DNA of 64,000 bases, taken from contig CANXME010000043.1 in assembly GCA_948144175.1 (NCBI GenBank), positions 558,001 to 622,000 of the forward strand. The letters are read 5' to 3'. Shown here in pieces: positions 1 to 23,834 of the stretch. The position numbers and the translations under genes were made by a program. This stretch comes from Closterium sp. NIES-65 (lineage: Eukaryota > Streptophyta > Zygnematophyceae > Desmidiales > Closteriaceae). Below the pieces are notes generated by a model. The model worked only from the letters and a program-made list of their open reading frames with translations, did not search any database and was not told where the DNA came from. Position 1 is the first letter of the stretch. Each line of letters opens with the position of its first letter.

Positions 1-133
1 GAAACAAGTGAACAGAGATGTGTGAACTATGAAAGAAGGCAGTACAAATATGAAACCCTAACTGGGTTGTACCCCCTATGGGATACCCCACTACAGCCTA
101 CACAATAGTATAAGCTATAGATATGTTCTGACA
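1..133 (-). repeat. 3' LTR of copia-A (cut by window edge)
   Basis: Matches 7245-7377 base for base. The outer end (about 3 bases) lies beyond the window start. A purine-rich tract, as read on the minus strand, abuts it at 134-150. Confidence 0.93.
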
Positions 134-3100: not shown

Positions 3101-6100
3101 ACTCCCAGGCCCAGCACCCCCAGGCTCAGCACCCCCAGGAGCAGCACCTCCAAGCTCGGCACCCCCGCGCACAGCACCCCAAGAGTCAGCACCCCCAGGC
3201 TCAGCACCCGCAGCAGCACCAGAGTCACCAGTAACCTCGACCGGGTCAACTGCGTCTACCTGGGACACACCTGAGGCGGCAGGAACCTGAGGGGGGAGGG
3301 GGTCTACCCGGGGGGGAACTGGCACAAGGAAGTCCGGCGGAGGGGGGAGGGAAGGAGTGCGGTAGGGGAAGAGGCGGTAGAAGGGGACTGACTCGTCGAA
3401 CGTGACGTCCTGGGAGGACAGAACACGACGAGAGGAGGGGTGGTAAAACTGCCACCCGGGAGCGTCCGTGGGGAAGCCAAGGAAGACACAGGGAGCAGCA
3501 CGAGGGGACAGCTTGTCTGCAGACAAGTCGCGGACAAACGCCCGAGATCCCCAGACACGGAACGCCGACGCATCGCCAACCTTCCCCGTCCACAACAAAG
3601 CTGGGGAGGTCTCCGGTCGGGAGACTCTGGGCTGAAGGTTGATCTGATGCGCGGCGTACCGAACCGCGAACGGCCACAGAAAATGGGGGGCAGCCGCATG
3701 CACCATGGACGTACGGGCGACATCCATGACAATGCCGATGCGGCGCTCAGCAATCCCATTCTGTTGTGGAGAGTCCGGAAGTGTGAAGGTCTGGCGGATG
3801 CCTCGTGCCCGACAGTAGGCTCGCAGAAGGCCGGAGGAGAACTCTCCGCCTCTGTCCGAATGCAGACGCAGAACAGGAAAGTCCGAGCCGAAGCTCCGCC
3901 TGAGCTGGAGACGAGCTGCGCGGATCCAGTCGATCAACACCTCAGTGACCTCACCCTTGCTGCGCAAGGGGAAGACTGTGGTGTAACGCGAGTAGTCGTC
4001 AACCACCAGCAGGAAGTAGCGCTCGTGACCCTGTCCACGGACGCGGGCTGGGCCCCACACGTCCATGTGAAGCGTCTGCATCGGGGCCTCCGACGAAGGG
4101 AACGGGGAGGAGTGAGGGGTAGCCCGCAGGCGACCCTCGACACAGGGGACACAGGGAGGGCCAGGCCCCGGAGGAAGGGGAGGGAGGGACCGGGGAAGGC
4201 CAGAGACAAGAAGGCGAGAGGCCATGCCCCGGAGACGAGGCAGGGAGGGGTGACCCATCCTGTGGTGCCACAGGAGGGTCTCGTGGGACAGAAGGCGACA
4301 CGAGCAGGGGGCAGACCCAGGACCAGACCTGGACGCTGCAGCAAACACCTGACCCGACGCAGCTACCTGACCAGACGCAGGAGAAGGAGACGGAACAGTG
4401 AGTGTGTACAGGCTCGACCCTAGACCACGTGTGAATGTTGTCAGGTGTCGACCCGTGTCCGCGTCCGTGCAGTGGGTGACTCGTCGACGCGCAGGGGTGA
4501 ACTGGTCAACCCCTGCATCCTGTAGGTCAGCACCCGCCACCAAGTTCGTAGAGAACGAGGGGAGGTAGAGACCGGACAGGGCGCCAGACGGGACCGCAGG
4601 GCACGGCAGGACAGTGGAGTAGCGAGCCAGAACAGGACCCCCAGAGGGGTCTGCCAAGGAGACCGCCACTGGCCGACTAAGCGGCGTGAGTGTGGTGCGG
4701 TCTCGAAAGAACGAGCGAGACGCCCCGGAGTCAAGAGTGAAAGTGAGAGAGGGTGTGTGACACTGTACCTGAGAGAGCAGACTCACCAGCACCTGAGGAC
4801 TCAGACTCACTGGCACCTAGAGCAAGAGCCTCACCAGCACCTGGAGCAGTAGTACCAATGCCCGGGTCGGGCGGGAAACACCGGTAACAGTCACCCTCCT
4901 CACTAATAGTCACAGCATACATAGCAGCAAGAATAGCATCAAAGTCAAGATCAAAGATAGCCACTCCAGCCCTAGACAGCTGGTCCCAGCGAGGGATCTC
5001 AGAGGCGTCAGGAAACTGGCGGCGCCAAGCGTCAGTCAGGCGGCCGAAGCAACGCTGGGCGGAGTGTGGACCACCACACTGCTCACCCGCACGGTCGCCT
5101 GTGCGCAGGACGTAAGTGCACGGACCAGTACCCCCACCCCGCTGACGCGCAGAGTACCACTCACGGAGCTGCTGCGGGGAGAGGGTCTCCTGACCACGCT
5201 GCTGCTGCTGGCGCTGACCACCACCGGAGCCACTCCTCCTCGGCGCGCCACGACCACCGCCGCCTCCTCTGCCGCCGTCGCCACCACCTCCACCGCCACC
5301 CCCACTCCCACCGTCGCCGCCGCCACCGCCGCCTCCGCCTCCACCCCCACTACCACCGCCGCTGCCGCCCCCGCCTCCACTGCCTCCGCCGACACCTCCA
5401 CTCCCGCCACTACTCCCGCTACCACCCTCACCTCCGCCGCTGCCTCTACCTCCGCCTCCACCGCCCCCGCCGCCTCCACCACCGCCCCTGCCCCCCTTGC
5501 TCTTGCCAGAGCGACGTCTCCCGCTGGGGGCAGACGCCGCTCCGACCGACTCAAAACCAACAAGGTCGGCCGTAGCAGCAGAGGCGACAGAGGGCAGGAG
5601 GGGGGAGGGGGAACACCCCTCAAAGATGGGGGTGCGCGGGTCACCACGAGACGCCCCTACAGCGAGAATGCTCTTCTCGGCTGCGAGGAGGGACTTCTCG
5701 AGGATCTCGACAGTGAGAGTGGTGGGGCAGACTGCGAGTAGGTCGTCCCTGACTCCGCGAAGGGAGTCAGGGAGGCGGGTGACAATGTAGTAGAGAGTGA
5801 AGTACTGTGGGGGGGGGTTCTTGGCGCAGAACTCAGCAGGAAGTGCAGCGCGGAAACGAGCGTCAATAGTGCGCAGGTGGGTAATGAGGTCGGCGACTGT
5901 GGCAAAAGCAGCAAGGTCGGGAAAGAGGTACGGTAGCATGAGGCGGCTCAGTGCAGCAGTGGCAGGGGTGGAGTAGCGTGCGATAACGGCGTCGTACAAG
6001 GTCTTAGCACTCTTGTACGACCCAAAGTGCGCACGCTCAGCGGGAGGGAGGTGGCGACGCACAGCAAGACGTGCAGCACCATCGCGTGTGGCCCATTGTG

Positions 6101-6350
6101 AGCAAACAGTGGCATCCTCAGTAGCAGCAGGGGCGGGAGAGGCACCAGAAGTGAGATCAAAGAGAGAGAGTCCGTCAGCTCTGTCGCACTGTAGGAAAAG
6201 CAGTAGGTCGTCTACCCACACGTCAAAGTCAATGGCTCTGCCCTCAGCGTCAAAGGCGAGGACACTGGGGGTAGCCATGACAGCAGTAGAGAGAGGGCAG
6301 TGCGCAGAGTAAAGCTCAGTGCTCACCAGACAGGGTAGTGCAGGGAGGGC

Positions 6351-7135
6351 TCGGGCGGCTCGGGCGGCTCGGGCGGCTCGACTGCTGGGCGGCTCGGGCG
6401 GCTCGGGCGGCACTGCAGCTGGGGCGGCTCGGCTGCTGGGGCGGCTCGGCTGCTGGGGCGGCTCGGCTGCTGGGGCGGCTCGGCGGCTGGGGCGGCTCGG
6501 CTGCTGGGGCGGCTCTGCTGCTGGGGCGGCTCGGCCGGGAGATGCAGGGGCGGGGCCGTCAGGTGCAGCGGCGGGCCGGCAGGTGCAGCGGCGGGTCGAC
6601 CGGTGCAGCGGCGGGCTGGCAGGTGCAGCGGCGGGGCCGTAGGGTGCAGCGGCGGGCCGGTAGGTGCAGCGGCGGGGCCGTCAGGTGAAGCGGCGGGCCG
6701 CTGGGTGCAGCGGCGGGCCGTAGGGTGCAGCGGCGGGCCGGCAGGTGCAGCGGCTGGGCCGTCAGGTGAAGCGGCGGGCCGCTGGGTGCAGCGGCGGGCC
6801 GTAGGGTGTAGCGGCGGGCCGGCAGGCGCAGCTGCGGGGCCGTCAGGTGAGGCGGCGGGCCGTAGGGTGCAGCGGCGGGCCGTAGGGTGCAGCGGCGGGC
6901 CGGCAGGTGCAGCGGCGGGGCCGTCAGGTGCAGCGGCGGGCCGGCAGGGCCGCGTCAGAGCCGGCGGCGGGGCCGCGTCAGTGAAGGCGGCGGGGCCGCG
7001 TCAAGCAGGCGGCGGGGCCGCGACGTAGCGGGCGGCAGGGCCGCGTCAGAGCCGGCGGCGGGGCCGCGTCAGTGGAGGCGGCGGGGCCGCGTCAAGCAGG
7101 CGGCGGGGCCGCGATCAGGAGGGGCAGCGGGGCCG
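6351..7135 (-). repeat. GC-rich tandem array in copia-A leader
   Basis: Lies between the primer-binding site and gag. The gag-proximal part is made of 9-bp units (GAGCCGCCC as read on the element strand). The LTR-proximal part has units of about 20-21 bp built from GCAGCGGCGGGCC variants. Every full copia copy in the window has an analogous array with a different unit, so the property is shared although the sequence is not. Confidence 0.8.
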
Positions 7136-7241
7136 CGAGGGAAATGGCGACCCGAGGGGTCGCTAAAAAAAATGCGCGCCTCGGGGCGCGCTTCGGTGGG
7201 CCCTAAAAAAACGGTCCTTAGGAAGGACCCGCTCTATACCA

Positions 7242-7377
7242 TGTGAAACAAGTGAACAGAGATGTGTGAACTATGAAAGAAGGCAGTACAAATATGAAAC
7301 CCTAACTGGGTTGTACCCCCTATGGGATACCCCACTACAGCCTACACAATAGTATAAGCTATAGATATGTTCTGACA
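7242..7377 (-). repeat. 5' LTR of copia-A
   Basis: A 136-bp LTR bounded by TG and CA as read on the minus strand. The primer-binding site adjoins its inner edge at 7231-7241. Confidence 0.93.
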
Positions 7378-7724
7378 AACCAACCCACCAGGGCCCGGAT
7401 GGACTGAGCTATTTCACCGTAGCTCGTAACAGCCTTTCGCCGGTGCCTTATTGCAACGTTAGACCATCGCAACGCAGGCCGGCTTCATGCGCGGCTTTCT
7501 GCGGTGCGAATGGCAAACTCGGAGCGTGTGGGGGGCATGGCACGTGTCGGCCTACAATAGTGGTTGGGAAGGTTCGGTGGCGGTTTTCGTGCGTGTGCGA
7601 CAAGGGTTACGGTTTGAAGCCGGGGAATCGGTTCTTGTGTGTGCCAACAGCAGCAGTGGCGCTCACGGACAAGCGCAGGGGAGGAGGTGACAATGAAAGG
7701 TTGTCGATTTTCACAGGCTTTTGA
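7378..7724 (+). pseudogene. 3' fragment of LRR-EGF gene, copy 1, interrupted by copia-A
   Basis: An open frame runs from the LTR edge to a TGA at 7722-7724. It encodes the end of an LRR-EGF protein: the motif SCAAFCGANGK, then CGGHGTC, then FSCVCDKGYGLKPGNRFLC. This Cys pattern (C..C...C...C.C....C) is EGF-like and matches the tail of copy 2 (8306-9193) and, more distantly, the intact gene at 22197-23834. No start codon or LRR is present on this side of the element. The upstream half should lie left of the window beyond copia-A. Inference: copia-A disrupted a gene that was open at least in this part. No signal peptide or membrane segment is visible in the fragment. Confidence 0.75.
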
Positions 7725-9802
7725 CACCTCGTTCTGCTTTGCTGAAGGAGACATTGCTGGAGGAGACATGGCTGGATCCAATGGCTACGTGGAGAAATAT
7801 ATTTTTATGGGGTTCGGTTTTACACATGTTGGAGCTTGTTTGCTAGCCGAGATAGCGAAGGTGGAACCTAGTACGGGAAGGAAATACCACATGGTTGTGG
7901 GACCAGTTCTGTAGGCTGCGAAGTATAACCATCATACTGCTATTTATGTGAAATACTTAGTGCAGTGTGCCTTTGCTCATATCGGAAACAGTTGTGTCGA
8001 ATTTTCGGTTCATATGCGATTGCCACCTCTTTCTGCCTACCTGTGTGCCACCTTATCTGCCTCGCACTGACAACCCAGAGCGCGCCAATGACATGGGGGA
8101 CAGCTGTGGGCCACCTGCATGTGCAGCTAACCCCCTGCTAACGTCAGCAGCTGGGTCACCGTCGTCACCTGTCCGTACAGAACCACCTCAGCTTAACGAG
8201 TCGCACTCGCTCCTACTTCGCTGGCAGCTGTTAACCTGCGTCTGGAACATCGATTAGCGCATCACGGCTGCGCGCTTTTGTCATAGATCAGCGCCGAAGC
8301 ACCCATTAGTGATACTGGCGGCTGGGGCTAACTGTTTGGGGGGTCCGCTTCCCCTGAGCACACTTCTGCGACTCCCGAAGCTGAACGGCCTTTCGCTCAG
8401 GCGTAACGGGTTCATCGTTACTTCGCTAGCACCTCTCGCGAACCACCCTAGGCTGAGAGACATCGACCTGAGCAATAACAAGGTTGCTCGGCGAATCCTC
8501 GCAACCCTCGGGCGTATGGAAAACATATAATTCCTGAATCTGGCGGGAAACAGGCTAACAGGATCTGTTCCCGCGTTTCTGCTAGCCAATCAGCCGAAGC
8601 TTATGGGACTCGACCTGTCTTTTAACAAGCTTTCAGGGAGCTTTCCGTGGACTGCTGTTCGAGGCGCGCCGGCGCTACTCTGGTTGGACGTCCGGAACAA
8701 CATGCTTTCTGGCAGAATCCCGGAGAATTCGTTCAATGGGCTCTTCATGCTCGCATTGAACATCTCAGAAAACTTCTTTGCGGGCAGTTTGCCCAATTTT
8801 GGTTCGCCAATATGGCTCGACGCACGTGGCAATTTCTTCTCGGGCAGACCGGAGATACGGGTGGGGGGAAAACAAGTCTGCCCCGTGGAAGGGCGGACGC
8901 GTCCAGACGGCAAACTGAGTTCCCTCACCGTAGCTCTTAACTGCCTTTCGCAAGTGCCTGGTTGCAAGGTTACATCGCAACGCAGGTCAGCTTCGTGCGC
9001 GGCTTTCTGCGGTGCGAATGGGAAATCGGGACCGTGTGGGGGGTATGGGACGTGTCGACCTACGCTAGTGGGTGGGAAGGTTCGGTGGCGGTTTTCGTGC
9101 GTGTGCGACAAGGGCTATGCTTTAAAGCCGGGGAATCGGTTTTTGTGTGTGCCAACAGCAGCAGCCCGCGCAGCCAAAGTACTGAAACCCTAGGGCAGGC
9201 GTAGTGGAGGAGACAATGATAGGTTGAGATCACAGGCTCTTTGATTCTCGTTGTGCTCTGCTGCAAGTGTCACATGGTTTCTGAGGGAAAATCTTAGGGT
9301 TAGGGTTGCTACTTATTTGCTAACTGAGGCTGCTAAGGCGGAACCTTGTAGGCAGCAACATCTGCGCAGGGAATCTGACATGGATGTGGTAACAGTTCCG
9401 TAGGCTGGGCGGAGTATAACCATCCTAAGTTGTTTCTGTGGAATACATGGTGCAGTGTGGATTTGGTAATATCGGAAACTGTTGTGTCGAATTTTTGCTC
9501 CAACACAAAGCTACCCTTTTCTGCTAACCTGTACGCCACCTAATCTACCTCGTAGTGACACCCCAGAGCGCGCTAATGACATGGTGGGGGGGGCAACTGT
9601 GGCCCCCCTGCATGTGCGGCAAACCCCCTGCTAACGTCAGCAGCCGGGTCACCGTCGTCACCCGTCCGTACAGAACCACCTCAGCATAACGAGTCGCACT
9701 CGCTCCTCTTCGCTGACAGCTGAAAACCTGCGTCTGGAACATCGATTAGCGCGTCACCGCTGCGCGCTTTTGTCATGGATCAGCGCCGAAGCACCATGCG
9801 TT
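7390..9802 (+). repeat. Tandem segmental duplication of LRR-EGF 3' end plus downstream flank
   Basis: Unit 1 (about 7390-8306) and unit 2 (about 8905-9802) align along their whole length: the EGF-coding part first, then about 600 bp of non-coding flank. Blocks near 8060-8300 and 9545-9795 are nearly identical. Similarity stops sharply after the shared AGCGCCGAAGCACC at about 8304 and 9796. The non-coding parts 7725-8305 and 9194-9802 hold no gene that I recognise. Confidence 0.85.
8306..9193 (+). pseudogene. LRR-EGF gene, copy 2, with one in-frame stop
   Basis: One frame gives LRR units (LNGLSLRRNGF, LRDIDLSNNK, LNLAGNRLTGSVP, LMGLDLSFNKLSGSFPW, LLWLDVRNNMLSGRIP, FMLALNISENFFAGSLP) followed by the EGF-like tail SCAAFCGANGK and CVCDKGYALKPGNRFLC. 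It ends at a TAG at 9191-9193. It matches the last third of the intact LRR protein at 22197-23834. The frame is broken once, by a TAA at 8528-8530 that sits in frame between LRR units. The left end begins at the duplication breakpoint near 8305, so no signal peptide or N-terminal cap is attached. An alternative is a two-exon gene with an unseen upstream exon, but the in-frame TAA lies inside well-conserved LRR sequence and no convincing intron surrounds it. Confidence 0.75.
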
Positions 9803-10603: not shown

Positions 10604-11719
10604 ATGGAGAGGAATCAGTTAGAGCACTCCAAGTGCGGAATCGTGGTTGAAGGAGAGGCTGACGCCAGCAAGGTTGACGTTGACGTCAGCGGAAGTGTTG
10701 CAAGTCCTTGTAATTGCCTAGATTCGGTAACAGCAGCAGGTGGTGATGGTGACGTCAGGGGATGTTCAGGAGGTGGGAAAGCAGGAAATCCGAACCGTCC
10801 GTTGAAGGCTGGGACAAAGAAGCGAGTTCCCCTGATTGGTCTAGCCAAGGTGCTGCTTAGAACAATAGTATTTGAATATAAACGAATTATTTTATCTTAT
10901 TGAAATACGATTCTGATGTGCCTCACCTGGGTGCTCTCTCTAAAAGCTTCCGTCCATAGGTGTCCCTACCCACTCATCACCCAGGGTGCTCACTCTTGGA
11001 GCTTCTTTACAGACGAAACCACCTTGTGTATATCGCCCCTTTGACCAACATCCCTTTGTTATATTAGTCCAATGTGTTGCTGCTCCTCTTCTTTCTTCTG
11101 CTGGACGTGCTAACTGCAGTTGTCTTTTCCAGTGAAAGTACAGTTCTTCTGCTCACGTTTCCCTGGTTTGTGCCAGCTTGGTATTCCCCCTGCGTTCTAA
11201 GCATCCTACAACCAATTTTGTTTCCGACTCCTTATCACCCGTCTTCCTCCAATCACAAACTGCCAGGTGGCATCAGTTGCAGCGGGGTTGCAGTTCGCCT
11301 GGGCTTTACAGCTGTCTCTGCTCACGCCCTATGCGCAGCAGCTCGGCATTCCCCATGCCTGGGCCTCCTACAGCCTGATGTTTTTCACCACCCTGTTCTC
11401 CATCCTCCTCCAATCACGAAACGCCAGGTGGCATCGGTTGCAGCGGGGTTGCAGTTCGGCTGGGCTTTACAGCTGTCTCTGCTCACGCCTTATGTGCAGC
11501 AGCTCGGTATTCCCTGTGCCTGGGCCTACAACTTTTCTTTCCATCCTCCTCCAATCACAAACCGCCAGGTGGCATCGGTTGCAGCGGGGTTACAGTTCGG
11601 ATGGGCTCTACAGCTCTCTCTGCTCACGCCCTATGTGCAGCAGCTCGGTATTCCCCATGCCTGGGCCTCCTACATCTGGCTCTGTGGGCCTGTATCGGGA
11701 CTGTTTGTGCAGGTATTAA

Positions 11720-11753
<34 letters not shown>

Positions 11754-14700
11754 TTTGCTGAGAGTGATGGGGAAGAGGGGGAAAGGAGGAAGGTGGGTAA
11801 AAAGAGGAGGTGTTTATGCCCTACATGCAGCAGGGCGGTATTCCTCTCTTCTCTGCCCTGGGCCTCCTACATCTGGCTGTGTGGGCCCTTGTTCGGCCTG
11901 TTTGTGCAGGTATTTGCTGGTGAAGGGTGTTTTTGAGAATTCTGCAGGGTGTTTTTGAGATTTCTCAAAAACACCCTGTGGTATTCCTCTCTGCCCTGGG
12001 CCTTCTTCTTCTGGCTCTGTGGGCCCTTGTTCGGCCTGTTTGTGCACGTATTTGCTGGTGAGATAAGATGGTGAGTGCATCGCCATTGGTAAGATGGGAG
12101 AGTAGGAGGAGGGGGGTTGGGAAAGATGTTGGGGGAGGGGGGTTGGGAAAAGAGGTTCTGTTTACTGGTGCAGGGAGTAACTTTAGAAGGGGGAGGGCAG
12201 AGGGTGTGAGTCTGCGCCCTATGTGCAGCAGCTCGGTATTCCCCATGCCTGGGCCCCCTACATCTGGCTCTGTGGGCCTTTGTCCAGCCTGTTTGTACAG
12301 GTATTTACTGGTGTAGGCATTCACTGGTGCGGGTATCACTGCTGCGAGTATTGACTAGTGCAGGTGTTAACTTGGGGGTGGGGAGAGGGGAGAGGTGGGG
12401 AAAAAAGGGAGGGAATGAGGCGGTTGTTACCTGCGCCCTGAGCTCGAGCCGTTTGTTAGCAATCTTTAGCTTTGGAACAGCCGCTAAATGTAAATCAATT
12501 TAGCATATCAAAGAAAAGCTCCCCCATTTGCCGACCTATCGGTTTTTCTGCCCTTTTGTCCCTTCCTCTCCTCACCCCTCCCCCCCATTCCTCGCCCATC
12601 CCCCAACTTACCCCGCCCTCTTCCTCCTCTCGTCCGCCCCCCGCTTCCGTTCCCCCACGTTCCCTCCAACCATCTCCCCCCTTTTTCTCCAGCCTCTGAT
12701 TGGCCATTGGAGCGACAGCTGTCGCTGCCCGTATGGGCGGCGCCGCCCGTTCATTGTGGCGGGGGCAGCACTGGTGGCGGTGGCAGCGATGCTGATAGCG
12801 TTCTCAAGGGACTTGGGGCACGCACTGGGGGATGCGAGGATTGAAGCAGGGCAACCGCTGGTGGGAGCGATTGTCGTTTTCATACTTGGTTTTTGGTGAG
12901 TCGCTTGTCTTGTGTGCTGCGCTGCTCTGGTGGCGGTGGCGGCAATGCTGATTGCGTTCTCGAGGGACTTGGGGCATGCACTGGGGGATGAGGAGGGGCG
13001 GCCGCTGGTGGGAGCGATTGTCGTTTTCATTCTGGGGTTCTGGTGAGTGGGAGAAGTCTTTTTGAGTCAATAAGTGCAAGAAACCACTGTGCACAGCTCT
13101 GCTCTGGTGGCGGTGGCGGCGATGCTGATAGCGTTCTCGAGGGACTTGGGGCATGCGTTGGGGGATGCGAGGATTGAAGCAGGGCGGCCATTGGTGGGGG
13201 CAATTGTTGTGTTCATCCTCAGGTTCTGGTGAGTGGGAGAGGCATTTTTGAGTCACTAACTGCAAGAGACCAATGAGATGTGCTCTGCTGTGGTGGCGGT
13301 GGCGGCGATGCTGATTGCGTTCTCGAGGGACTTGGGGCATGCGTTGGGGGATGCGAGGATTGAAGCAGGGCGGCCATTGGTGGGGGCAATTGTTGTGTTC
13401 ATCCTCAGGTTCTGGTGAGTGGGAGAGGCATTTTTGAGTCACTAACTGCAAGAGACCAATGAGATGTGCTCTGCTGTGGTGGCGGTGGCGGCGATGCTGA
13501 TTGCGTTCTCGAGGGACTTGGGGCACGCGTTGGGGGATGTGAGGGTGGAAGAAGGGTGGCCGCTGGTGGGGGCAATCGTCGTGTTCATTCTCGGGTTCTG
13601 GTGAGTGGGAGAATGCATAGAAGTTCTGGTGCTGATAAAATGTGCGTTGCTCTGCTCTGCTGCTGATGGGATGGGTTGTGCGTTGCTCTGCTCTGGTGCT
13701 GATGGGATGGGATGTGCGCTGCTCTGCTCTGCTGCTGATGGGATGGGATGTGCGCTGCTCTGCTCTGCTGCTGATGGGATGGGATGTGCGCTGCTCTGCT
13801 CTGCTGCTGATGGGATGGGATGATGTGCGCTGCTCTGCTCTGCTGCTGATGGGATGGGATGTGCGTTGCTCCGCTCTGGTGGTGGTGGCGGCGATCCTGA
13901 GTTGGGACTTGGGTTATGCACTGGGGGACGCGAGGGTGGAAGCAGGGCGGCCGCTGGTGGGAGCAATCGTCGTGTTCATACTTGGTTTTTGGTGAGTGGG
14001 AGAGGCGTTTTTGAGTCACTAACTGCAAGAGACCAATGAGATGTGCTCTGCTGTGGTGGCGGTGGCGGCGATGCTGATAGCGTTCTCGAGGGACCTGAGC
14101 TATGCATTGTGGGATGCGAGGGTGGAACCAGGGCGGCCGCTGGTAGGAGCTATTGTCGTTTTCATCCTTGGTTTTTGGTGAGTGGGGTGTGTGGTGGGCG
14201 GTGCTGCTCTGGTGGTGGTGGCAGCGATGCTGATAGCGTTCTCGAAGGACTTGGGGCATGCACTGGGAGATGCGAGGATTGAAGCAGGGCGGCCGCTGGT
14301 GGGGGCAATTGTCGTGTTCATTCTGGGGTTCTGGTGAGTGGGGTGTGTTGTGGGCTGCGCTGCTCTGGTGGCGGCGGCGGCGATGCTGATAGTGTTCTTG
14401 AGGGACTTGGGGCATGCGTTGGGGGACGCAAGGGTGGAAGCAGGGCGGTCGCTGGTGGGAGCGATTGTTGTTTTCATCCTGGGGTTCTGGTGAGTGGGAG
14501 AGGCGTTTGATTGATCTGAGCCGGATAGAGCAAGGATATGGGTTCAGGTCCTGCTTTTGAGTCGACTCAAAAACCGGATAGAGCAAGGATATGGGTTCAG
14601 GTCCTGCTTTTGAGTCGACTCAAAAACCGGATAGAGCAAGGATATGGGTTCAGGTCCTGCTTTTGAGTCGACTCAAAAGCCGGATAGAGCAAGGATATGG

Positions 14701-17179
14701 GTTCAGGTCCTGCTTTTGAGTCGACTCAAAAGCCGGATAGAGCAAGGATATGGGTTCAGGTCCTGCTTTTGAGTCGACTCAAAAGCCGGATAGAGCAAGG
14801 ATATGGGTTCAGGTCCTGCTTTTGAGTCAACTCAAAAGCCGGATAGAGCAAGGATATGGGTTCAGGTCCTGCTTTTGAGTCGACTCAAAAGCCGGATAGA
14901 GCAAGGATATGGGTTCAGGTCCTGCTTTTGAGTCGACTCAAAAGCCGGATAGAGCAAGGATATGGGTTCAGGTCCTGCTTTTGAGTCGACTCAAAAGCCG
15001 GATAGAGCAAGGATATGGGTTCAGGTCCTTCTTTTGAGTCGACTCAAAAACCGGATAGAGCAAGGATATGGGTTCAGGTTCTTTGCTTGGCCAACAACAG
15101 CCTGCCTCTCTGTCTACCTGCTACCTCTAGAATCCCTTCTTTCCCTCACTCCTCTCATCATCACCCATCATCACCCATCATCACCCATCATCGCCCATCA
15201 TCGCCCATCATCGCCCATCATCGCCCATCATCACCCCTTTTTTCTCTCATGCTGCCTGACTTGGCCACCCAACAGCTTGCAGGGACCATGCCGAGCTCTT
15301 CTAGTTCCCTCTTCTGGTGTAGCATACTGCTTTCGTTTTCCACCTGCTGCTCTCAAGTTCCCTCTCATTTCCCCTCACTCCTCTCCACCCATTTTCACTC
15401 TGTTCTTCTCTCAGGCTTCTCGATCCGCCCAACAGCCTGCAGGGACTGAGTCGAGTTGTTCTGGCGGATCACACTGCTTCTCTTCTCTGCTTCTCTTGAG
15501 CATACTGTTGCTTTGTCCACCTGCTTCTGTCATTTTCCCTCAATTTCTCCTCACTCCTCTCCACCCACTTCTCTCAGGCTGCTTGACCTGGCCAACAACA
15601 GCCTACAGGGACCGTGTCGAGCTCTGCTGGCCGATTTTACTGGTGAGTGTTTCTTTGAGAATTCTCAGAAAAACCTCGCTGATTTTACTGGTGAGTGTTG
15701 CCGAAGCAAGCTAAAATTGACGGGTCAATACCTATTTTTCCACTTTCATGCCTCCGAGCAATGTGCTGTGCTTTGCAGCTGGCTCCTACCCCCACCTTCT
15801 CTCTACCCCTTTGTCCTCGTTACAGAAAAGTCCTTTACAGGCATGGAAGGCAAGCACACTCGCAGGGCGAATGCATACTTCGCTGCGTTCATGGCTCTTG
15901 GCAGCGTCCTTGCCTTCACAGCTGGTTCCTACCTATTCCCACCTCGTCTCTGTTCTATGCTTCTGTCCTCTTTACAAACATCCCCTTTACAGGCACAGAA
16001 GGCAAGCGCACTCGTTGAGCCAATGCATACTTTTCCGCGTTCATGGCTCTCGGTAACGTGCTTGGCTTTGCAGCCGGCTCCTACCCGCACCTCGCCTCCG
16101 CCCTCTCCTCTCCCCTCTCCCTCCTCCGGCCCCACCTCACCTTGCTCTGAATCCCTCTGCTTTCATACTTCTCAGCGTTCAAGGCTTTGAAAAACGTGCT
16201 AGGCTTTGCAGCTGGCTCCTACCCCCACCCATCTTCCCTCTTTCCTTTTGTCCTCTTTACAAACATCCCCGTTACAGGCACATAAGGCAAGCGCACTCGC
16301 AAGCGAATGCTTACTTCTCCGCGTTCAGGGCTCTCAGCAACGTGCTTGGCTGTGCAGCTGGCTCCTACCCCCATCTCCTTTCTTCCCGTCTTTCCATGCA
16401 TCTTCCTTGAAAAATAACCCCCTTTGCAGGCACAGAAGGCAAGCGCACTCGCAGAGCGAATGCATAATTTTCTGCTTTCATGGCTCTCGGCAACGTGCTC
16501 GGCTTTGCAGCTGGCTCCTACCCCCACCCACCTTCCCTCTTCCGCTTTGTCCTCCTTACAAACATCCCCTGTACAGGCACGGAAGGCAAGCGCACTCGCA
16601 GGGCCAACGCTTACTTTTCTGCTTTCATGGCTCTCGGCAACGTGCTGGGCTTTGCAGCTGGCTCCTACCCGCACCTCGCCTCCGCCCTCTCCGCTCCTCT
16701 CTCGCTCCTCCTCCGCCCGTTCGGGGGGTTCTCGCTGGTAACCGCGGCGTGTAACGGCGTGTGTGCGAATCTCAAGGCTGCGTTCATGCTGCATGTGGTG
16801 CTGCTCCTGGTGTCGACCATTGTTAGTGTGTCGGCTGCTTCTGAGGTGCCACTTTCTGATTCTGTTGCTGCCGATAGTGGTGTTGCTGCTGGTGCTGCTG
16901 CTGGTGCTGGTGCTGCTGGTGCTGCTGCTGGTGCTGGTGCTGCTGGTGCTTCTGCTGGTGCTGTTGGTGCTGATAGCTCTGCTGCTGATGCTTCCGGGGC
17001 CGACGCTGCTGCTATTGCTACTATCAGGGAGGCTTTTAGGGAGGATAGCCTGATGAGGCAGCCGCTTTTGCCTTGTAGCACCCATTACGCGCCCCCTGCT
17101 GGGCCTTCTTCTTCTCCTGCTGCTGCTCCTGCTGCTATTCATGCTCTGGTTACTGGTCAAGTCCCCATCCCCAGCAGCA

Positions 17180-17222
<43 letters not shown>

Positions 17223-20200
17223 GAGCAGCATCAGTGGCAGCGGCACAAGTGGGGTATTCAGCTCTGGTGGGGTGTGGCCTGTGGATGACTCGTTAGAAGG
17301 CCTCTTTGCTGCTGACTCGTTACAAGCAGATCCTGCTGATGCGGACATGGGAGGGCGGAGGACAAGGGAAAGCAGTGAGGCGATGAGTGATTTGGTTCAG
17401 GTGGAGGGGTCGGAGGGAGGGGAAAGGAAGTGTGGGAGAGAGAGTGGGAGGGAGTGTGGGAGAGAGTGTGGTGGAAACAGCGTAAGTGGGTTCAGTGCGA
17501 GTGAGATAGAGGAGATGGGAGCAGGCGAGACGGGGCACAAGAGAGGAGCGAATGGGTCAACTACAGTTGAGGCAGAGAAAGGCGGGACGAGGCAAGCGGA
17601 GCAGCAGAAGGAAGACGAAAAAGAGGACGGGGAGGGGGAGGGGGATGGGGAGGAGGAGGAGGAGGAGGAAGAGGGAGAGGAGGAACCGAAGCAGGTGCTG
17701 TTATGGGAGCTGGTCAGTTCAGTGCAGCAGCTGCCTCCCCCCGTGCTGTGCGTGCTGGCAGTCACGGCCCTAACCTGGCTTGCGTGGTTCCCGTTCCTGC
17801 TCTTCGACACTGATTGGATGGGCCGAGAGGTCTTTGGGGGATCGAGTAACCCTAGGGAATCTGGACTAGCAGCGGCTAGGGCAGCAGCGTCTGCAGCAGC
17901 AACTGCAACAGCTAAAGCTGCTGCTGCTGCTGCTGCTGCTGGTACAGCAAGAGGTGCATCTGCTGCTTCGCTAGGATCTGGTAACGCAGCTAGTTTTGTA
18001 GCCAGCGGAGTCGCTAGTGCTAGTAGCGAGGCGGCTCTTAAGGCGTACAGCAGGGGAGTGAGGTTCGGAGCGCTAGGTCTGGTGCTGAACTCGGTGGTGC
18101 AGGGAGTGACGAGCCTCAGGATCGACGCTCTGTGCCGGAGGTTCGGGTCGAGGACCGTGTGGGCCGTGGGGAATCTGGTGCTTGCTGTTTGCCTGCTCGC
18201 CACTGCTGCCGTGCCCTCTGCTGCTCCTGTTGTGCCTCAAATCCGGCTAGCCGCTGCTGCTGTGGCCGCTGGTGCTCCTGCACAAGGGGTTGAAGCTCAA
18301 TCCTGGCTGCCTCAAAACGTGCTGGTCACCCCTGCTGTTCCTTCTGCTGCTCCTGTTGTGCCTCAACTCAACCAGGCACATGCCACCGGTAGCCTCTGCT
18401 GCTCCCTGTCTCAAAACGGACTGGCGACTGCTGGGCTTCGGAAGCTGATGGGCGCGCGGAAACTCGGGATGCAAGAGCCGTTGCTTGAGTCGCATCCTGC
18501 GGTATCACGCCAGCAATCCTTGCTGCTGCCATTTTCAAGCGTGTCAGGCGTGTCGCAATCAAGGGTGGCTAAGGCAGCTGCACTCACCATCTTTGCTGTC
18601 CTTGGCGCTCCCATGGCGGTGAGTGGTAGTGTTGTGTCATGCCTTGTTCTGGGAATCTGTTTTTGACACGTCTCGAAAATCAAGGCAGCTGCACTCACCA
18701 TCCTTGCTGTTCTCGGCGCTCCCATGGCGGTGAGTTGGGGCACGCATGGTATGAGAGTTATTACTGTGCTTGGAACAGGCGCATTCACTGCTGCTGATGT
18801 GCACCTGAGTTGATCAAAGCCACGAAAGGCAGCGGCACTCTCTACTCACCATCTTTTCTGTTCTCCCTCACAGCAAGGTTTTGTCGAACGCAGACAGGTG
18901 GGCTGCGGAGGCCTTACGTCCTGCGGACGTATGTTCTCCCTCGCAGCAAGGTTGGAGAGCAGGGTCTCTTATGTGACTCGAAATAACGGCTGCCTTGACG
19001 CCTGATCCCCCATCCACCACCGCCCACCACCGTCCACCACCGTCCACCACCGTCCACCACCGTCCACCACCGTCCACCACCGTCCACCACCGTCCACCAC
19101 CACCGTCCACCACCGTCCACCGTCCACCACCACCGTCCACCACCGTCCACCGTCCACCACCGTCCACCACCACCGTCCACCACCGTCCACCGTCCACCAC
19201 CGTCCACCACCACCGTCCACCGTCCACCACCACCGTCCACCACCACCGTCCACCACCGTCCACCGTCCACCACCGTCCACCACCGTCCACCACCGTCCAC
19301 CGTCCACCACCGTCCACCACCGTCCACCGTCCACCGTCCACCGTCCACCGTCCACCATCCACCATCCACCGTCCACCATGCCCCATGCCCCACCCACCAC
19401 CCCCAGGCCTGCCTTGTGACTCCTTGTGACCACCCTCTTGGGGCGGGGGAGGGCAGGGCGTGGCAGCCGGTCTTTCTCTGCCTGATGCGCACACCATTGA
19501 ACCTCATGCTTTGCCACCCACCCGTTCCGTTCGCCGTCTCCCATCCCACCATCTCCTCTCTCCCATCCCACCATCTCCTCTCTCCCATCCCACCATCTCC
19601 TATCTCCCATCCCACCATCTCCTATCTCCCATCCCACCATCTCCTATCTCCCATCTCACCAGGTGACCTACAGCCTCCCATTCTCCCTCGCGGCGTTCTT
19701 CACCACCAGAGGAGGCGGAGGGGAGGGCCTGCTTGCTATGTGGCTCGCAATGACTGTTGCCTTCACGTCTGAACTCCCGCCCACCACCCACTACCACCCA
19801 CCATGCCCCATGCCCCACGCCCCATCCATCCCTCCAGGTGACCTACAGCCTCCCCTTCTCTCTCACAGCGTCCTTCACCACCAGAGGAGGCGGAGGGCAG
19901 GCCCTGCCTTGCCTTGACGTCCGATTCCAAACACACAATCCACCATGCCCCACGCCCCATCCATCACCCCAGGTGACCTACAGCCTCCCCTTCTCTCTCA
20001 CAGCGTCCTTCACCACCAGAGGAGGCGGCGGGCAGGGCCTGGCAGCTGGTCTACTCAACATTGCGATAGTGCTGCCTCAGGTGAATCTTCAGGTGGTCTT
20101 GTTATTCCTCAGGTGAATCCCTGGGTTAATTATATTGTGCTCAGTCGATTTTTTCATTCTACCATGGTGAATCCCTCATTTTTCCTTGGATGGATGCCCA

Positions 20201-20889
20201 GGTGGTCTCATAACGTCTCAGGTGGATGCCCAGGTGGTCTCATAACGTTTCAGGTGGATGCCCAGGTCACCTTGTTGTGCATAGGTGACTTCCCATCCCA
20301 ACATGTTACCCTGCCCCTTGTTTGCCCCTCTGGGCCCCTCTGTGCCACTCTCTCATATGTTAGTGTCACTAGTCATCAGCCCCTTTGATGCATTCTTCGG
20401 TGGGGGCAACATTCCTGGCTGCATGGCAGCAGCTGCCTTCGCTGCAACTGCCCCTCCTCCCAACCTGGCCCTTACTGACACCCCATCTGTGCCATACCCC
20501 TACCCGCGCAGATGTTTGTATCGCTAGTCATCGGCCCCTTTGATGCATTCTTCGGTGGGGGCAACATTCCTGGCTTCATGGCAGCTGCTGCCTTTGCTGC
20601 TGCTGCTGCAGCTGCTGCGTTCTTCACCCTCCCCCGCCCTCCTCCTGACACGCCTCCCCCTCCCAGACCCTCTGCCTCACGCGCTAGTCTTTGTACTACC
20701 TCAATCCCTCATTGGATGTCTCCTCCCTCTGCCTCTGCGCCACGCGATAGCCTTTCTAACCCCTTTCGCACGCCGCCTCTCCATACCTCTGCAAGACGAC
20801 CCGATCCTGTGTCTCCCCTCTCCCTACCCACTTGTGTCTCTCCTATTCCACCTTTGGGCATCAAGGATTCTTGTAGCAGGAGCCAATAG
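10604..20889 (+). CDS. SUT: Sucrose/H+ symporter (SUT/SUC family), seven exons
   Basis: A proton-coupled sucrose carrier of the major facilitator superfamily (GPH/SUT family). Exons: 10604-10849, 11569-11712, 12693-12895, 15578-15642, 16577-18618, 19973-20080 and 20512-20889. All introns are GT-AG, and the phases agree, giving about 1061 residues. SUT signatures in order: [19 protein letters not shown] and [12 protein letters not shown] (exon 2), PLIGHWSD and GRRRPFI (exon 3), [19 protein letters not shown] (exons 3/4), [18 protein letters not shown] and [13 protein letters not shown] (exon 5), TYSLPFSL (exon 6), [16 protein letters not shown] (exon 7). The usual length is 500-600. The excess is a central loop of roughly residues 312-590 (Ala/Gly-rich, poly-Ser, poly-Glu), an Ala-rich insert after FDTDW, a loop near 18195-18540 and a Pro-rich C-terminal tail. 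The first donor (AAG|GTGCTG) is weak. The introns hold many partial copies of the neighbouring exons, listed separately. The loop near 18195-18540 could hide a further intron. Confidence 0.85.
11720..11751 (+). repeat. Poly-G run of 32 bases
   Basis: An uninterrupted run of 32 G in SUT intron 2, seven bases after the exon 2 donor. It has clear G-quadruplex potential on the coding strand. The exact length is prone to sequencing error. Confidence 0.85.
11945..11978 (+). repeat. Perfect 16-bp-stem hairpin in SUT intron 2
   Basis: The arms are 11945-11960 and 11963-11978, fully complementary with a 2-base loop. The arm contains GTTTTTGAGA, a motif that recurs in other introns of this gene. Confidence 0.8.
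12924..14489 (+). repeat. Eight tandem copies of the 3' half of SUT exon 3
   Basis: Copies lie at 12924-13042, 13101-13228, 13287-13414, 13473-13600, 13873-13991, 14050-14177, 14206-14333 and 14362-14489. Each encodes a version of [20 protein letters not shown] through FILGFW and ends in a GTGAG donor in the same phase as the true exon (12693-12895). All eight frames are open. The only length changes are 9-base, in-frame losses in the first and fifth copies. None carries the first half of the exon ([15 protein letters not shown]) or an obvious acceptor. Copies 2 to 4 and their intron heads are almost identical, so some duplications are recent. Confidence 0.9.
13646..13872 (+). repeat. 36-bp minisatellite in SUT intron 3
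   Basis: About six copies of a 36-bp unit built from CTGCTCTGCT and GATGGGATGGGATGTGCG, placed between the fourth and fifth exon 3 copies. Confidence 0.85.
14519..15078 (+). repeat. 53-bp satellite with palindromic core in SUT intron 3
   Basis: About 10.6 units with a regular 53-bp period. Each full unit carries GGATAGAGCAAGGATATGGG and the 18-bp perfect palindrome TTTTGAGTCGACTCAAAA (one unit has a single change at its centre). The units are nearly identical, so the array is recent or homogenised. Confidence 0.93.
15087..15698 (+). repeat. Partial copies around SUT exon 4
   Basis: Pieces of exon 4 ([19 protein letters not shown]) occur at about 15087-15111, 15249-15305 and 15417-15465, before the full exon (15578-15642). 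A short copy of its donor end (GCTGATTTTACTGGTGAGTG) follows at 15678-15698. The partial copies are diverged and do not keep a full frame. Confidence 0.75.
15156..15235 (+). repeat. 10-bp minisatellite (CATCATCRCC)
   Basis: Eight tandem units of CATCATCACC or CATCATCGCC in SUT intron 3. Confidence 0.9.
15748..16535 (+). repeat. Partial copies of the start of SUT exon 5
   Basis: Copies of the intron tail (CTTTACAAACATCCCCTTTACAG-like) plus the exon 5 beginning ([20 protein letters not shown]) begin at 15841, 15993, 16279 and 16431. 3' pieces alone lie at about 15748-15795 and 16168-16225. The copy at 15841 is open. Those at 15993 and 16431 contain in-frame stops and that at 16279 is frameshifted. 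The full exon begins at 16577. Confidence 0.8.
18674..18875 (+). repeat. Partial copies of the end of SUT exon 5
   Basis: A copy of the last 16 codons ([15 protein letters not shown]) ending in a GTGAGT donor lies at about 18678-18729. A worn copy follows at about 18820-18872. Both are downstream of the true exon end at 18618. Confidence 0.75.
19003..19380 (+). repeat. CCACCACCGT minisatellite in SUT intron 5
   Basis: About 375 bp of CCACCACCGT units mixed with 7- and 13-bp variants that differ by whole CAC triplets. It generates long spurious low-complexity frames on both strands. Confidence 0.93.
19539..19662 (+). repeat. 22-bp minisatellite before SUT exon 6 copies
   Basis: About five and a half units of CATCCCACCATCTCCTATCT plus CC, ending in the acceptor of the first exon 6 copy. 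Confidence 0.88.
19663..20080 (+). repeat. Three copies of SUT exon 6, the last one complete
   Basis: Copies start at 19663, 19838 and 19973, each directly after a CAG acceptor, and begin [20 protein letters not shown] or a close variant. Copies 2 and 3 share the intron tail CCACGCCCCATCCAT. Only the third (19973-20080) continues through [15 protein letters not shown] to a GT donor. It is the exon used in the gene model. Confidence 0.85.
20081..20470 (+). repeat. Short repeats and a partial copy of SUT exon 7
   Basis: 20081-20280 holds short repeats of CTCAGGTGRATSCC and GGTGGATGCCCAGGTGG type. A copy of the exon 7 start lies at about 20357-20450 ([20 protein letters not shown]). It lacks the AG acceptor found before the true exon at 20512. 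Confidence 0.78.
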
Positions 20890-22196
20890 AGGAGCTTTTC
20901 TATCACTAGTGATGGATTTTCATTTGTTAATTTGTTTATCTGCTTGGTACTTGCTGTCACGGTAAATATGCTGACAAGTACACATTACCTTCATCACATT
21001 TGGCACGTACACCAAACCCTTCTACTAGGTTTACCCAAACGCCCGGAAAGAAAAGAAGTCCATTAAAAATCCACATAATGTACAATATGTAATTACATAC
21101 TAGCGAGATACAAGAAAGGGGTTTCGACACGAGTCAAGAATCACGAAGCTGCCACCGAGCTGCCGTATGTGCAAACATGACGTCAGGTGTCAGCCATCTC
21201 ACTGGGAGCGAGACACCACAGCCGGTCGTACAGTTACTGCCAGGACTCCACCGTCCAATCAGCCGTTTCGCAGCTGTCGTCGCAGTCGTCTGGAAACGCG
21301 AATGTGCTTCTTCGCCCTGCACATAGTGGACATTGTGGACCTGCGCGATTCGGAGAATCTCAATGTCGTGCACCACGCAAGCCGCATTCCACCCACACGG
21401 AATTGGCGGGACTATTATTTCTGTTTCACAGCCTATATTTTAAGGTTCTCCATGCTGCCCTGAGCTAAGCATTGTATTTTTCATAATATTTCATCCACAC
21501 TGCTGTTCCATAACCCTGCAAGTTCGAGACTGATTTTGCCGGTTATGAGTCTCAGAAACTTAGCTGTTCTGGGGCTCTTCAATGGATCAGGAGATGATAG
21601 GAGTCTACACTGCTTTCGGTTCCCACTGGGACTCGATGTCCCTGATCAATGGGCTAGAGACTGCGAACAGTCTCTCAAAAGAAGTTTTACAGAGAAAAAC
21701 AACTTGGCAATTCCCCCAACCAGTGATAGCTCATCCGTGCATCTCACTTGCAAATCGAAATCGACGCTGTTGTTTTGGTGTGTCTTTCCTCGCTGCTGTG
21801 ATGTTTCCCTTGGAGGCATGCCAACAAACATCACACCTTCCGTACCTTGCTGGAGCGACTCGATCGCGCGGCTCCTCGCCGCTTAGCAGGCACATGGGTC
21901 CTGGCGAATGGAAATGCCGCCAACGACAGCGATTGATGATGGCATAAAAGCAACTGTGGCTTCCTCAAGCCTACCTTTCGCGAATCGAGTTAGCACCCTC
22001 CTCATATGCCTACTAGATATCCGGTAAAACCTCTCCACGATATCATCGTAACAGCAGCACCTGATTAATCCCTTTAGAGACTACGGAGCCGCACAACTCC
22101 GAACTACGACTTAACATTCCTGTTTCGAGTTTGACTGGTTTCGACTGTTGCCTCGTAATAGCCAATTGTTGGTGACGTCCACTTCGAGAAGCGCCG
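20890..22196 (+). other. Intergenic region between SUT and the LRR-EGF gene, no gene seen
   Basis: About 1.3 kb with only short frames (for example 21167-21463 and 21536-21886) that resemble no family I know. It presumably holds the SUT 3' end and the LRR promoter. No specific motif could be assigned. Confidence 0.5.
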
Positions 22197-23834
22197 ATGG
22201 CACCCCTCCTCGGTAGATGTACTAGGAATGGTTCAGCCTCGCTCGCATCCCCGATAGTAGCTCTCTTCGTTCTCGTTGCAAGCATTCTGTGCATCCCGAG
22301 CCACGCCGCGCGAATCAAGCCCGCTCAGGAGAAGTTCCTGCTCTCCTTGATGCCGTACCTTAACGAGTACATCTATAACGAGACGTGGCGCGCGGGGACG
22401 GATTGCAGCAAATGGGAAGGCGTCAAATGCACCCCGCAAGGCGCGGTCGTGAGGATCGAGCTCAACCTCTGGGAAACGGGGCCCATTCCGCGGACCATCA
22501 CCATTCTCAACTCCCTCCAACACCTCGAAATCTCCGGGATGAACCTCACGGGCTCCCTTCCGGAGTCAATCGGCGCGCTTCTGACCCTCACGAACATCAG
22601 GATCAGCAGCAGCACGGGGGGATGCAGCGGCCGCATTCCACGCTCCCTCCCTTCCCTCACGAACCTCGTGTCGCTTGATCTCTTTGGTCATAGGTTTTCC
22701 GGAGGCATCCCACCCGCGCTTAGCAGCCTTAAGCGTCTTAATTACCTCTCGCTTGCCCTAAACCAGCTCACTGGCCCGATTCCCGCCGCGCTCGGATCCC
22801 TTCTGAACTTAAAGACGCTTCTCCTCGCGCATAATCGCTTAACGGGAGCCGTGCCGCGCCAGCTGTCGGGATTGCGGCTCCTCGAGGAGTTAAACCTGCA
22901 GGAGAACCGATTAATAGGTCCTCTACCTGGCAAGCTGACCGCTCTCGCTCCGACTCTTAAGGTCCTCGACCTTTCATACAATCCCATTGGCGGCGTCTTC
23001 CCTTACAAGTTAATCAACAGGCTGTCGCGGCTCGAGGGACTGAATATGCAGCAATCGGGGATTAAAGACTCGACTCTGTCGCTGGCTCAGTTGTGGCAGC
23101 ACCCGAGCCTTCGTTCCCTCGATCTGAGCTTCAATAAGTTTTCAGGAAACCTGCCCCCCGTTCTGGGCAGGATAAAAAATCTCAACAAGCTTTACCTCAT
23201 GAAGAACCGGCTCAACGGCTCTGTTTCGTGGAAGTTTTTCGCATATAAACCGCCCCTGACCGATCTTTCTCTCGCGTATAACCAGATGACGGGAGAATTT
23301 CCGTGGACTGCCGTGAAAGCGGGAGTTGCGGGGACTCTGGTGCATCTGGACATTGCCAGCAACTCGTTCGTGGGTTCAATTCCTGCAGCTGCGCTCTCCA
23401 ACATTCCCCTGACGGATTTCAACATCTCCGAAAATTACTTCTCTGGGAAGCTGCCTCAGCTGGGGAGGGGTGATGGGGACATGATGTTCGATCTGCAGTA
23501 TAACTACTTATGGGGTAACCCCATGCTCACTATTTCCGGGCAGAAACTCTGCCCGGAGGAGTCCGGTCTCAGGCAGGGGTTCGGGGACGATGAAATTCTG
23601 CGAGCTGTGCAGAACTGCCTGTCGAAAACGTCTAGCTGCCCGGAGAAACAGCAGCGGAGCGGGGCGGCTTGTGAAAAATTTTGTGGAACCAGCAGCAGCA
23701 GCCCACCCTGCTCAGGTTACGGAACTTGTGTGCCAGCGAGCAGTGCCAGCAGCTCTACACAGTTTGAGTGTCGCTGCTATAAAGGGTACAAGCTGAAGGC
23801 AGGAAGCAAGCATGTGTGCGAGAAGGATGGCTGA
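22197..23834 (+). CDS. Secreted leucine-rich-repeat protein with EGF-like C-terminus
   Basis: A single-exon frame of 545 residues that looks whole. Residues 1-38 form a signal peptide (hydrophobic core IVALFVLVASILCI, likely cut after SHA). Residues about 44-79 form an N-terminal cap ending WRAGTDCSKWEGVKC, as in plant LRR proteins. About a dozen plant-type LRRs follow to about residue 430 (LxxLxxLxLxxNxLTGxIP pattern). The tail (about 453-545) is Cys-rich and EGF-like (CEKFCG, CSGYGTC, ECRCYKGYKL). There is no transmembrane segment, GPI-like tail or kinase, so it is probably an apoplastic or wall protein that could act in recognition or protein binding. Two broken relatives lie at 7378-7724 and 8306-9193 on the same strand. 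The first ATG gives the signal peptide and was chosen for that reason. The ligand and role are unknown. Confidence 0.88.
   Translation: MAPLLGRCTRNGSASLASPIVALFVLVASILCIPSHAARIKPAQEKFLLSLMPYLNEYIYNETWRAGTDCSKWEGVKCTPQGAVVRIELNLWETGPIPRTITILNSLQHLEISGMNLTGSLPESIGALLTLTNIRISSSTGGCSGRIPRSLPSLTNLVSLDLFGHRFSGGIPPALSSLKRLNYLSLALNQLTGPIPAALGSLLNLKTLLLAHNRLTGAVPRQLSGLRLLEELNLQENRLIGPLPGKLTALAPTLKVLDLSYNPIGGVFPYKLINRLSRLEGLNMQQSGIKDSTLSLAQLWQHPSLRSLDLSFNKFSGNLPPVLGRIKNLNKLYLMKNRLNGSVSWKFFAYKPPLTDLSLAYNQMTGEFPWTAVKAGVAGTLVHLDIASNSFVGSIPAAALSNIPLTDFNISENYFSGKLPQLGRGDGDMMFDLQYNYLWGNPMLTISGQKLCPEESGLRQGFGDDEILRAVQNCLSKTSSCPEKQQRSGAACEKFCGTSSSSPPCSGYGTCVPASSASSSTQFECRCYKGYKLKAGSKHVCEKDG

Follow-up and report, generated by a model that had tools for sequence, protein, structure and literature searches.

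Tandemly duplicated exons that are used in a mutually exclusive manner are copies of complete exons, each with both splice sites, and the silent partial gene cassettes of antigenic variation diversify the protein of the gene that they serve. The sucrose transporter (SUT) gene described here has points in common with both. Like mutually exclusive exons, it has tandem copies next to the used exon in which coding sequence is conserved, but none of these copies is complete. Like the cassettes of antigenic variation, the copies are incomplete and apparently silent and may exchange sequence with the working copy, but their differences are mainly synonymous and not of a kind that diversifies the protein, and it is only presumably that they exchange sequence with the used exon.

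A tandem duplication that crosses an exon-intron border has been described for the potato RdRp gene, as one event whose new intron was confirmed by RNA reads (PMC4974935). There, the duplicated segment consists of the 3' portion of an intron plus the beginning of the exon after it, and its splice signals come from the parental border; the copies in the SUT gene are of the same make. In contrast to that single event and its new intron, the SUT gene holds at least 25 copies, on acceptor as well as donor sides, and its introns appear to have been lengthened. In the AGGT model (Rogers 1989, as cited in PMC4974935), exon sequence likewise becomes intron by tandem duplication, but an AGGT in the duplicated exon segment is required as the source of both splice sites, whereas GT follows AG at exons 2 and 6 only of the SUT gene. 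In the open-licence literature, the terms searched brought up no account of a gene with duplicated borders at almost all of its exons, and as far as this search goes, the scale that duplication reaches in a single gene and the constraint under which its copies diverged are new.

The SUT gene and its partial exon copies

In the window (the whole stretch of 64,000 nucleotides that was analysed), a SUT/SUC-type sucrose transporter gene of seven exons was modelled on the forward strand at 10604..20889, with splicing inferred from homology and sequence alone. Exon 1 (10604-10849) and the used exons 2 (11569-11712), 3 (12693-12895), 4 (15578-15642), 5 (16577-18618), 6 (19973-20080) and 7 (20512-20889, with the stop codon), joined via GT donors and AG acceptors, give a CDS of 3186 nt including the stop, with a frame open throughout its 1061 codons (1061 aa). 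Arabidopsis SUC1 (8bb6) matches the product from exon 1 to early exon 5 (E 1.3e-76, protein residues 76–304), with a second match past the central loop, and with this core homology to a characterised SUC protein the gene probably encodes a plant-type sucrose transporter. The central loop (16830-17680) contains, relative to SUC1, a low-complexity insertion that is rich in Ala/Gly/Ser and then acidic, and is estimated at about 260 residues. A run of 32 G (11720-11751), a few bases past the exon 2 donor, is a possible weak spot of the assembly. A tRNA search over the SUT locus found none, and the 26 Rfam matches over the locus, mostly in low-complexity or minisatellite stretches, were all under the gathering scores. 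Relatives of the SUT gene were absent from viral contigs, and prokaryote contigs gave just two matches, both bacterial, distant and 37 residues long, which were not used.

Alignment of every exon border with the locus (Smith-Waterman) gave 27 rows, of which the two weakest (11139-11210 and 19367-19473) were excluded and 25 kept, so that the SUT introns hold at least 25 partial exon copies. Both self-BLAST, in which all direct-repeat rows had E-values of 8.5e-9 or less, and the border alignment place partial copies at exon 2 (both sides), exon 3 (donor side), exon 4, exon 5 (both ends), exon 6 and exon 7, as had been reported in the initial annotation of this DNA, whose phrase "almost every exon" is true of the SUT gene from exon 2 to exon 7. 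When exon 1 was compared with the SUT introns, no copy of it was found.

All copies lie on the forward strand. Upstream of exon 2 there are two copies of its start, with intron tail and acceptor (11239..11532, with exon starts at 11267 and 11428), and downstream there are three copies of its end, with the donor (11811-11914, 11980-12052 and 12215-12305). Exon 3 is followed by eight copies of its tail and donor (12910..14495), which are separated by spacers of 21 to 52 nt and by one block of a 36-bp minisatellite (13640-13878). Exon 4 is preceded by two copies with intron tail (15242-15302, which has AT for AG, and 15341-15476). Six copies of the start of exon 5 lie upstream of it (15722..16546), four with intron tail and acceptor and three with an in-frame stop, and one copy of its end with the donor lies downstream (18682..18735). 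Exon 6 has two upstream copies consisting of intron tail, acceptor and exon start (19651..19906, with exon starts at 19663 and 19838), and exon 7 has a single upstream copy of its start, in which the acceptor AG is lost (20335..20451). Absent from the list of the initial annotation were a 19-nt exact copy of the end and donor of exon 4 (15681-15699, repeating 15633-15651) and short CAGGT repeats downstream of the exon 6 donor (20081-20267). Copies and used exons diverge by 5–20% and also by indels, and in the border alignment no copy besides the used exon has both splice borders.

The initial annotation had staked its reading on self-alignment across the splice junctions, and here it was borne out: 23 of the 25 kept copies cross the junction as direct repeats, and two exon 5 pieces (15722 and 16166) stop short of it. 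Its account of upstream copies as intron tail, acceptor and exon start, and of downstream copies as exon end, donor and intron head, is correct in outline, with some qualifications. The exon 7 copy (20335-20451) crosses the junction in the alignment but has AT instead of AG, and its BLAST match begins just 3 nt upstream of the exon. On the donor side, the match to the used intron is mostly only 5–6 nt long, i.e. the donor signal itself (all three exon 2 copies, six of the eight exon 3 copies and the copy of the exon 5 end); the exon 3 copies have longer intron heads in common with one another than with the used intron. Complete and partial exons were seen in the succession that had been described, but this adds no evidence, since tandem duplication by its geometry permits no other arrangement: the complete exon must come last on the acceptor side and first on the donor side, because only the last duplicate of intron tail and exon start precedes the remainder of the exon.

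Pieces of the adjacent exon occupy 2594 of the 7100 intronic bases (37%; forward strand, E no more than 1e-4). A looser scan gave 2840 bases (40%), partly spurious, with an average of 0–0.1 hits in mononucleotide-shuffled introns. Introns 3 and 5 are in part minisatellite. The proposal that these introns grew by border duplication thus stands in so far as such duplications account for more than one third of the intron sequence, but to take the copies as passive products of that growth clashes with their mostly synonymous divergence (see below).

The earlier statement that many decoy splice sites were left behind agrees with the presence of AG in 9 of 11 upstream copies (the first exon 4 copy and the exon 7 copy carry AT) and of GT in 13 of 13 donor-side copies (three of exon 2, eight of exon 3 and one each of exons 4 and 5). 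The full frame is kept when the decoy acceptors 11428 or 19838, or the decoy donors 15690 or 20092 (the latter in the short repeat after exon 6), take the place of the normal site; use of the decoys leads to an early stop in 7 of the 9 AG-bearing copies and in 12 of the 13 donor-side copies. It could be argued from the many retained splice signals, from these four frame-preserving sites and from the low dN/dS values given below that the copies owe their conservation to present use in alternative or regulated splicing. We consider this very doubtful, since no copy has both borders, three of the six exon 5 copies contain stops, most decoys end the frame early as just stated, and divergence in place would not leave spacers more alike than exon pieces.

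That exons 2 and 6 start with GT right after AG was confirmed, and is true of these two exons only. Intron creation of the AGGT type, which the initial annotation had invoked, finds no support at the locus, as the borders of exons 3, 4, 5 and 7, including those with the largest arrays (exons 3 and 5), are without AGGT, no duplicated AGGT segment giving both splice sites was found, and there is no sign that any of the introns is new. With border duplication at six of its seven exons, the SUT locus provides a natural series on intron lengthening and a case for how splicing selects the right site among near-identical decoys.

Synonymous bias in the divergence of the copies

Neutral relics would be expected to differ from the used exon with a dN/dS of at least about 0.5, and from one another with a dN/dS of about 1. 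When used exons and copies of eight families were pooled, dN/dS was 0.152 (95% codon bootstrap 0.10–0.22), from 203.7 synonymous differences in 594.5 sites and 111.3 nonsynonymous differences in 1676.5 sites, sums in which shared changes count more than once because the copies are related. By family, the values against the used exon were 0.09 (0.04–0.18) for exon 3, 0.14 (0.07–0.27) for the exon 5 start, 0.17 (0.03–0.58) for the exon 2 start, 0.25 (0.08–0.53) for exon 4, 0.18 for the exon 5 end, 0.23 for exon 7, 0.28 for exon 6 and 0.38 (0.18–0.93) for the exon 2 end; the last four families are short and, taken singly, do not exclude 0.5. Between copies, dN/dS was 0.15 (0.07–0.27) for exon 3, 0.24 (0.13–0.44) for exon 5 and 0.24 for exon 4, and 0.68, 0.70 and 0.47 for the exon 2 start, the exon 2 end and exon 6, respectively, where 1 is not excluded. 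Differences in exon 3 fell on codon positions 1, 2 and 3 in the numbers 21, 17 and 98, of 314 each, and the synonymous difference among the nine exon 3 sequences was 0.35.

Changes private to one copy and states common to at least two sequences were counted in five families (exon 2 start, exon 2 end, exon 3, exon 5 and exon 6; exon 4, the exon 5 end and exon 7 were left out), with the second exon 2-start copy in a shortened form here and in a longer form for dN/dS. Private changes comprised 34 synonymous and 50 nonsynonymous ones, a mild nonsynonymous deficit, as neutrality predicts a share of about 0.72 (P 0.015), and shared states comprised 29 synonymous and 11 nonsynonymous ones (11 of 40 nonsynonymous), with synonymous to nonsynonymous ratios of 17:6 in exon 3, 10:1 in exon 5 and 2:4 in the exon 2 end. 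The contrast between private and shared changes was significant (Fisher P 0.001). Since the shared states are biased towards synonymous change and the private changes are near neutral, translation seems to have acted as a filter on the older variation and hardly on the recent variation.

The initial annotation implied that the copies are passive leftovers of intron growth, a view with which the pooled dN/dS, at 0.152 versus an expected value of about 0.5 or more, is at odds. That they are simple relics, i.e. tandem duplicates dead on arrival and in neutral decay, would agree with the near-neutral private changes (50 of 84 nonsynonymous), with the in-frame stops among the exon 5 copies and, for one family, with the exon 2 end, which alone is compatible (0.38, 0.18–0.93). 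It is nevertheless highly improbable in view of the pooled value and of the values among copies of exons 3 and 5, for which two exons it is already hard to hold; in addition, the oldest relics should contain many private synonymous changes, and the maximum in exon 3 is three. Each exon 3 copy has 0–3 such changes (in the near-identical pair 13106/13292, the count is zero by construction), and used exon 3 has two private synonymous changes and one nonsynonymous change. The possibility that each copy preserves the state of the used exon at a different time was rejected on the same count, as the oldest of such snapshots would bear many private synonymous changes. Because the divergence is mostly synonymous, the copies seem to be no plain relics, and a further step is needed, namely exchange with functional exons.

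Signs of recombination at exon 3 and a proposed origin of the copies

The 52-nt spacers behind the exon 3 copies 13106, 13292 and 13875 are 0 or 1 site apart, and the exon pieces before these three spacers differ at 1 of 129, 19 of 120 and 21 of 120 sites. Between copies 13292 and 13875, the spacers are 1/52 apart and the exon pieces 21/120 (P 0.005). Intron 3 thus has spacers that are almost the same behind exon pieces that are 16–18% apart. When 13106-13420 was compared with 13292-13606, a single difference fell within the initial 234 nt, as against 12 within the final 81 nt, which, judged from the alignment, is the trace of a 186-bp duplication that ended within an exon 3 piece, making a hybrid.

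Four-gamete conflict was observed in 81 of 190 site pairs of exon 3, where PHI gave P 0.003–0.05, depending on window size, and the Sawyer test P 0.001 for all variable sites and a non-significant P 0.23 for third positions alone. In exon 5, recombination was not detected by PHI (P 0.96–1.0) or by the Sawyer test (P 0.57 and 0.72), and the conflict in 12 of its 19 site pairs may come from repeated synonymous change. Given these null tests in exon 5 and the non-significant third positions in exon 3, part of the four-gamete conflict may be repeated synonymous change. A mosaic copy whose breakpoint lies in an exon tract is clearly seen in exon 3, and none is seen in exon 5. We conclude that recombination probably brought diverged, functional exon sequence into the arrays, exon 3 being the clearest case.

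The finding that divergence sits in the exon pieces and not in the unique spacers might also point to an artefact of assembly or polishing, in which reads from several SUT genes were merged or exon pieces were altered by mis-mapped short reads, and the G run after the exon 2 donor and the long minisatellites are in keeping with this. However, the copies have common fixed breakpoints and periods, they are 5–20% off the used exon, with indels, and six exons are affected in the order that tandem duplication predicts, so that an artefact is most unlikely. A second way to obtain such a pattern is recycling within the locus and with no outside donor, in which contraction and expansion of the arrays rotate copies through the working position and nonsynonymous changes are purged. 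The breakpoint within an exon 3 piece, which shows that hybrid copies form, and the few private changes of used exon 3 speak for it, but all eight exon 3 copies must then have held the working position within a short time, given their few private synonymous changes and near-identical spacers, and we regard recycling as rather unlikely.

The best explanation, in our judgement, and one that we hold to be moderately probable, is that border tandem duplications were tolerated and that sequence was exchanged with diverged functional SUT exons, either alleles or paralogues. According to this explanation, short tandem duplications would have arisen repeatedly across the borders of SUT exons, with units of about 140–190 bp in the clearest arrays. 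A duplication confined to an exon would change the protein and would usually be lost; a border-crossing duplication would leave one complete exon, which splicing would join, and the extra pieces would turn into intron. As a high rate of tandem duplication and this filter would together explain the positions of the copies, a preference of duplication for borders need not be assumed. Further tandem duplication or unequal crossing-over, breaking within exon pieces, would have extended the arrays. The copies would now be mostly silent, most of their differences would have arisen under coding constraint, and exon tracts would have been swapped with already diverged functional SUT exons, belonging to other alleles or to other SUT genes.

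A study of desmid genomes has described, for strains of the Closterium psl complex, a Ks peak near 0.35 within a strain, the hybrid origin of one strain and recombination among genes that differ in origin (PMC10407611); the synonymous difference among the exon 3 sequences, given above, has the value of that peak. Such a Ks peak and such recombination would supply diverged functional donors for SUT, and the exon sequence could have come from diverged alleles or from SUT paralogues; unlike the exon pieces considered here, the matter of that study is whole genes and contigs. If the synonymous-biased divergence is confirmed, intronic exon pieces can recombine with working exons, and if such recombination is true, dN/dS tests, gene models and copy-number counts would be distorted in such genomes.

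Palindromes, minisatellites and the rest of the window

Intron 3 contains a 53-bp minisatellite (14519..15082, forward strand), every unit of which carries a palindrome of the TTTTGAGTCGACTCAAAA type. Palindromes of the form TTTTTGAGnnnnCTCAAAAA are present in four SUT introns (11945-11978, 14553-15050, 15652-15671 and 18660-18679), with no close match elsewhere in the window. The first of these, detected by motif scan, is located between two copies of the exon 2 end (11945..11978), and two looser motif matches are located between the exon 4 donor and its mini-copy (15652..15671) and, as an imperfect palindrome, between the exon 5 donor and its copy (18660..18679). The motif TTTTGAN{4,14}TCAAAA occurs 11 times in the window, always inside SUT introns, versus 0.01 expected, a significance that is overstated since the motif was defined after the cases had been seen. 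As 10 of these 11 sites are repeat units of a single minisatellite, the independent cases are those of introns 2 and 3, to which introns 4 (15652) and 5 (18660) add the looser ones.

In introns 2, 4 and 5, the exon-end copy starts within about 10 nt past the palindrome, which may mark duplication breakpoints; the explanation preferred above, exchange with diverged functional exons after tolerated border duplication, is not rested on it. It seems improbable to us that the intronic pieces form a standing pool of silent cassettes, in form similar to the cassettes of antigenic variation, which exchanges with the working exons of SUT and of sister SUT genes and reshuffles synonymous sequence while the protein is kept, with duplication seeded at the junction palindromes. 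In hairpin folding against shuffles, z was -7.7 at 11945-11978 and -0.9 to -1.4 at the other three sites, and since three of the four sites fold no better than shuffles, no working structure is claimed for the palindrome.

The window has a GC content of 60%, and much of positions 1-7400 and 24500-64000 is retroelement, with several diverged Copia-type copies, a chromodomain-bearing Ty3-type element and a LINE-type element (reverse transcriptase and endonuclease). This GC content, the flanks rich in retroelements and the SUT of plant type point to a streptophyte alga, possibly Closterium, as the source. Pfam assigned nine other long ORFs of the window to LRR proteins and retroelements, except for two without a match, which leaves a single further gene in the window with a partial copy nearby. 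This is an LRR-protein gene (8531-9193), whose 3' end, together with downstream sequence, is partially copied about 1.5 kb upstream (7404-7656); self-comparison of the same window yielded no local copy of the LRR ORF at 22176-23834. Two genes are too little to speak for a genome-wide pattern. Between the LRR copy at 7404-7656 and the gene at 8531-9193, the differences at codon positions 1, 2 and 3 number 8, 7 and 15 of 83.
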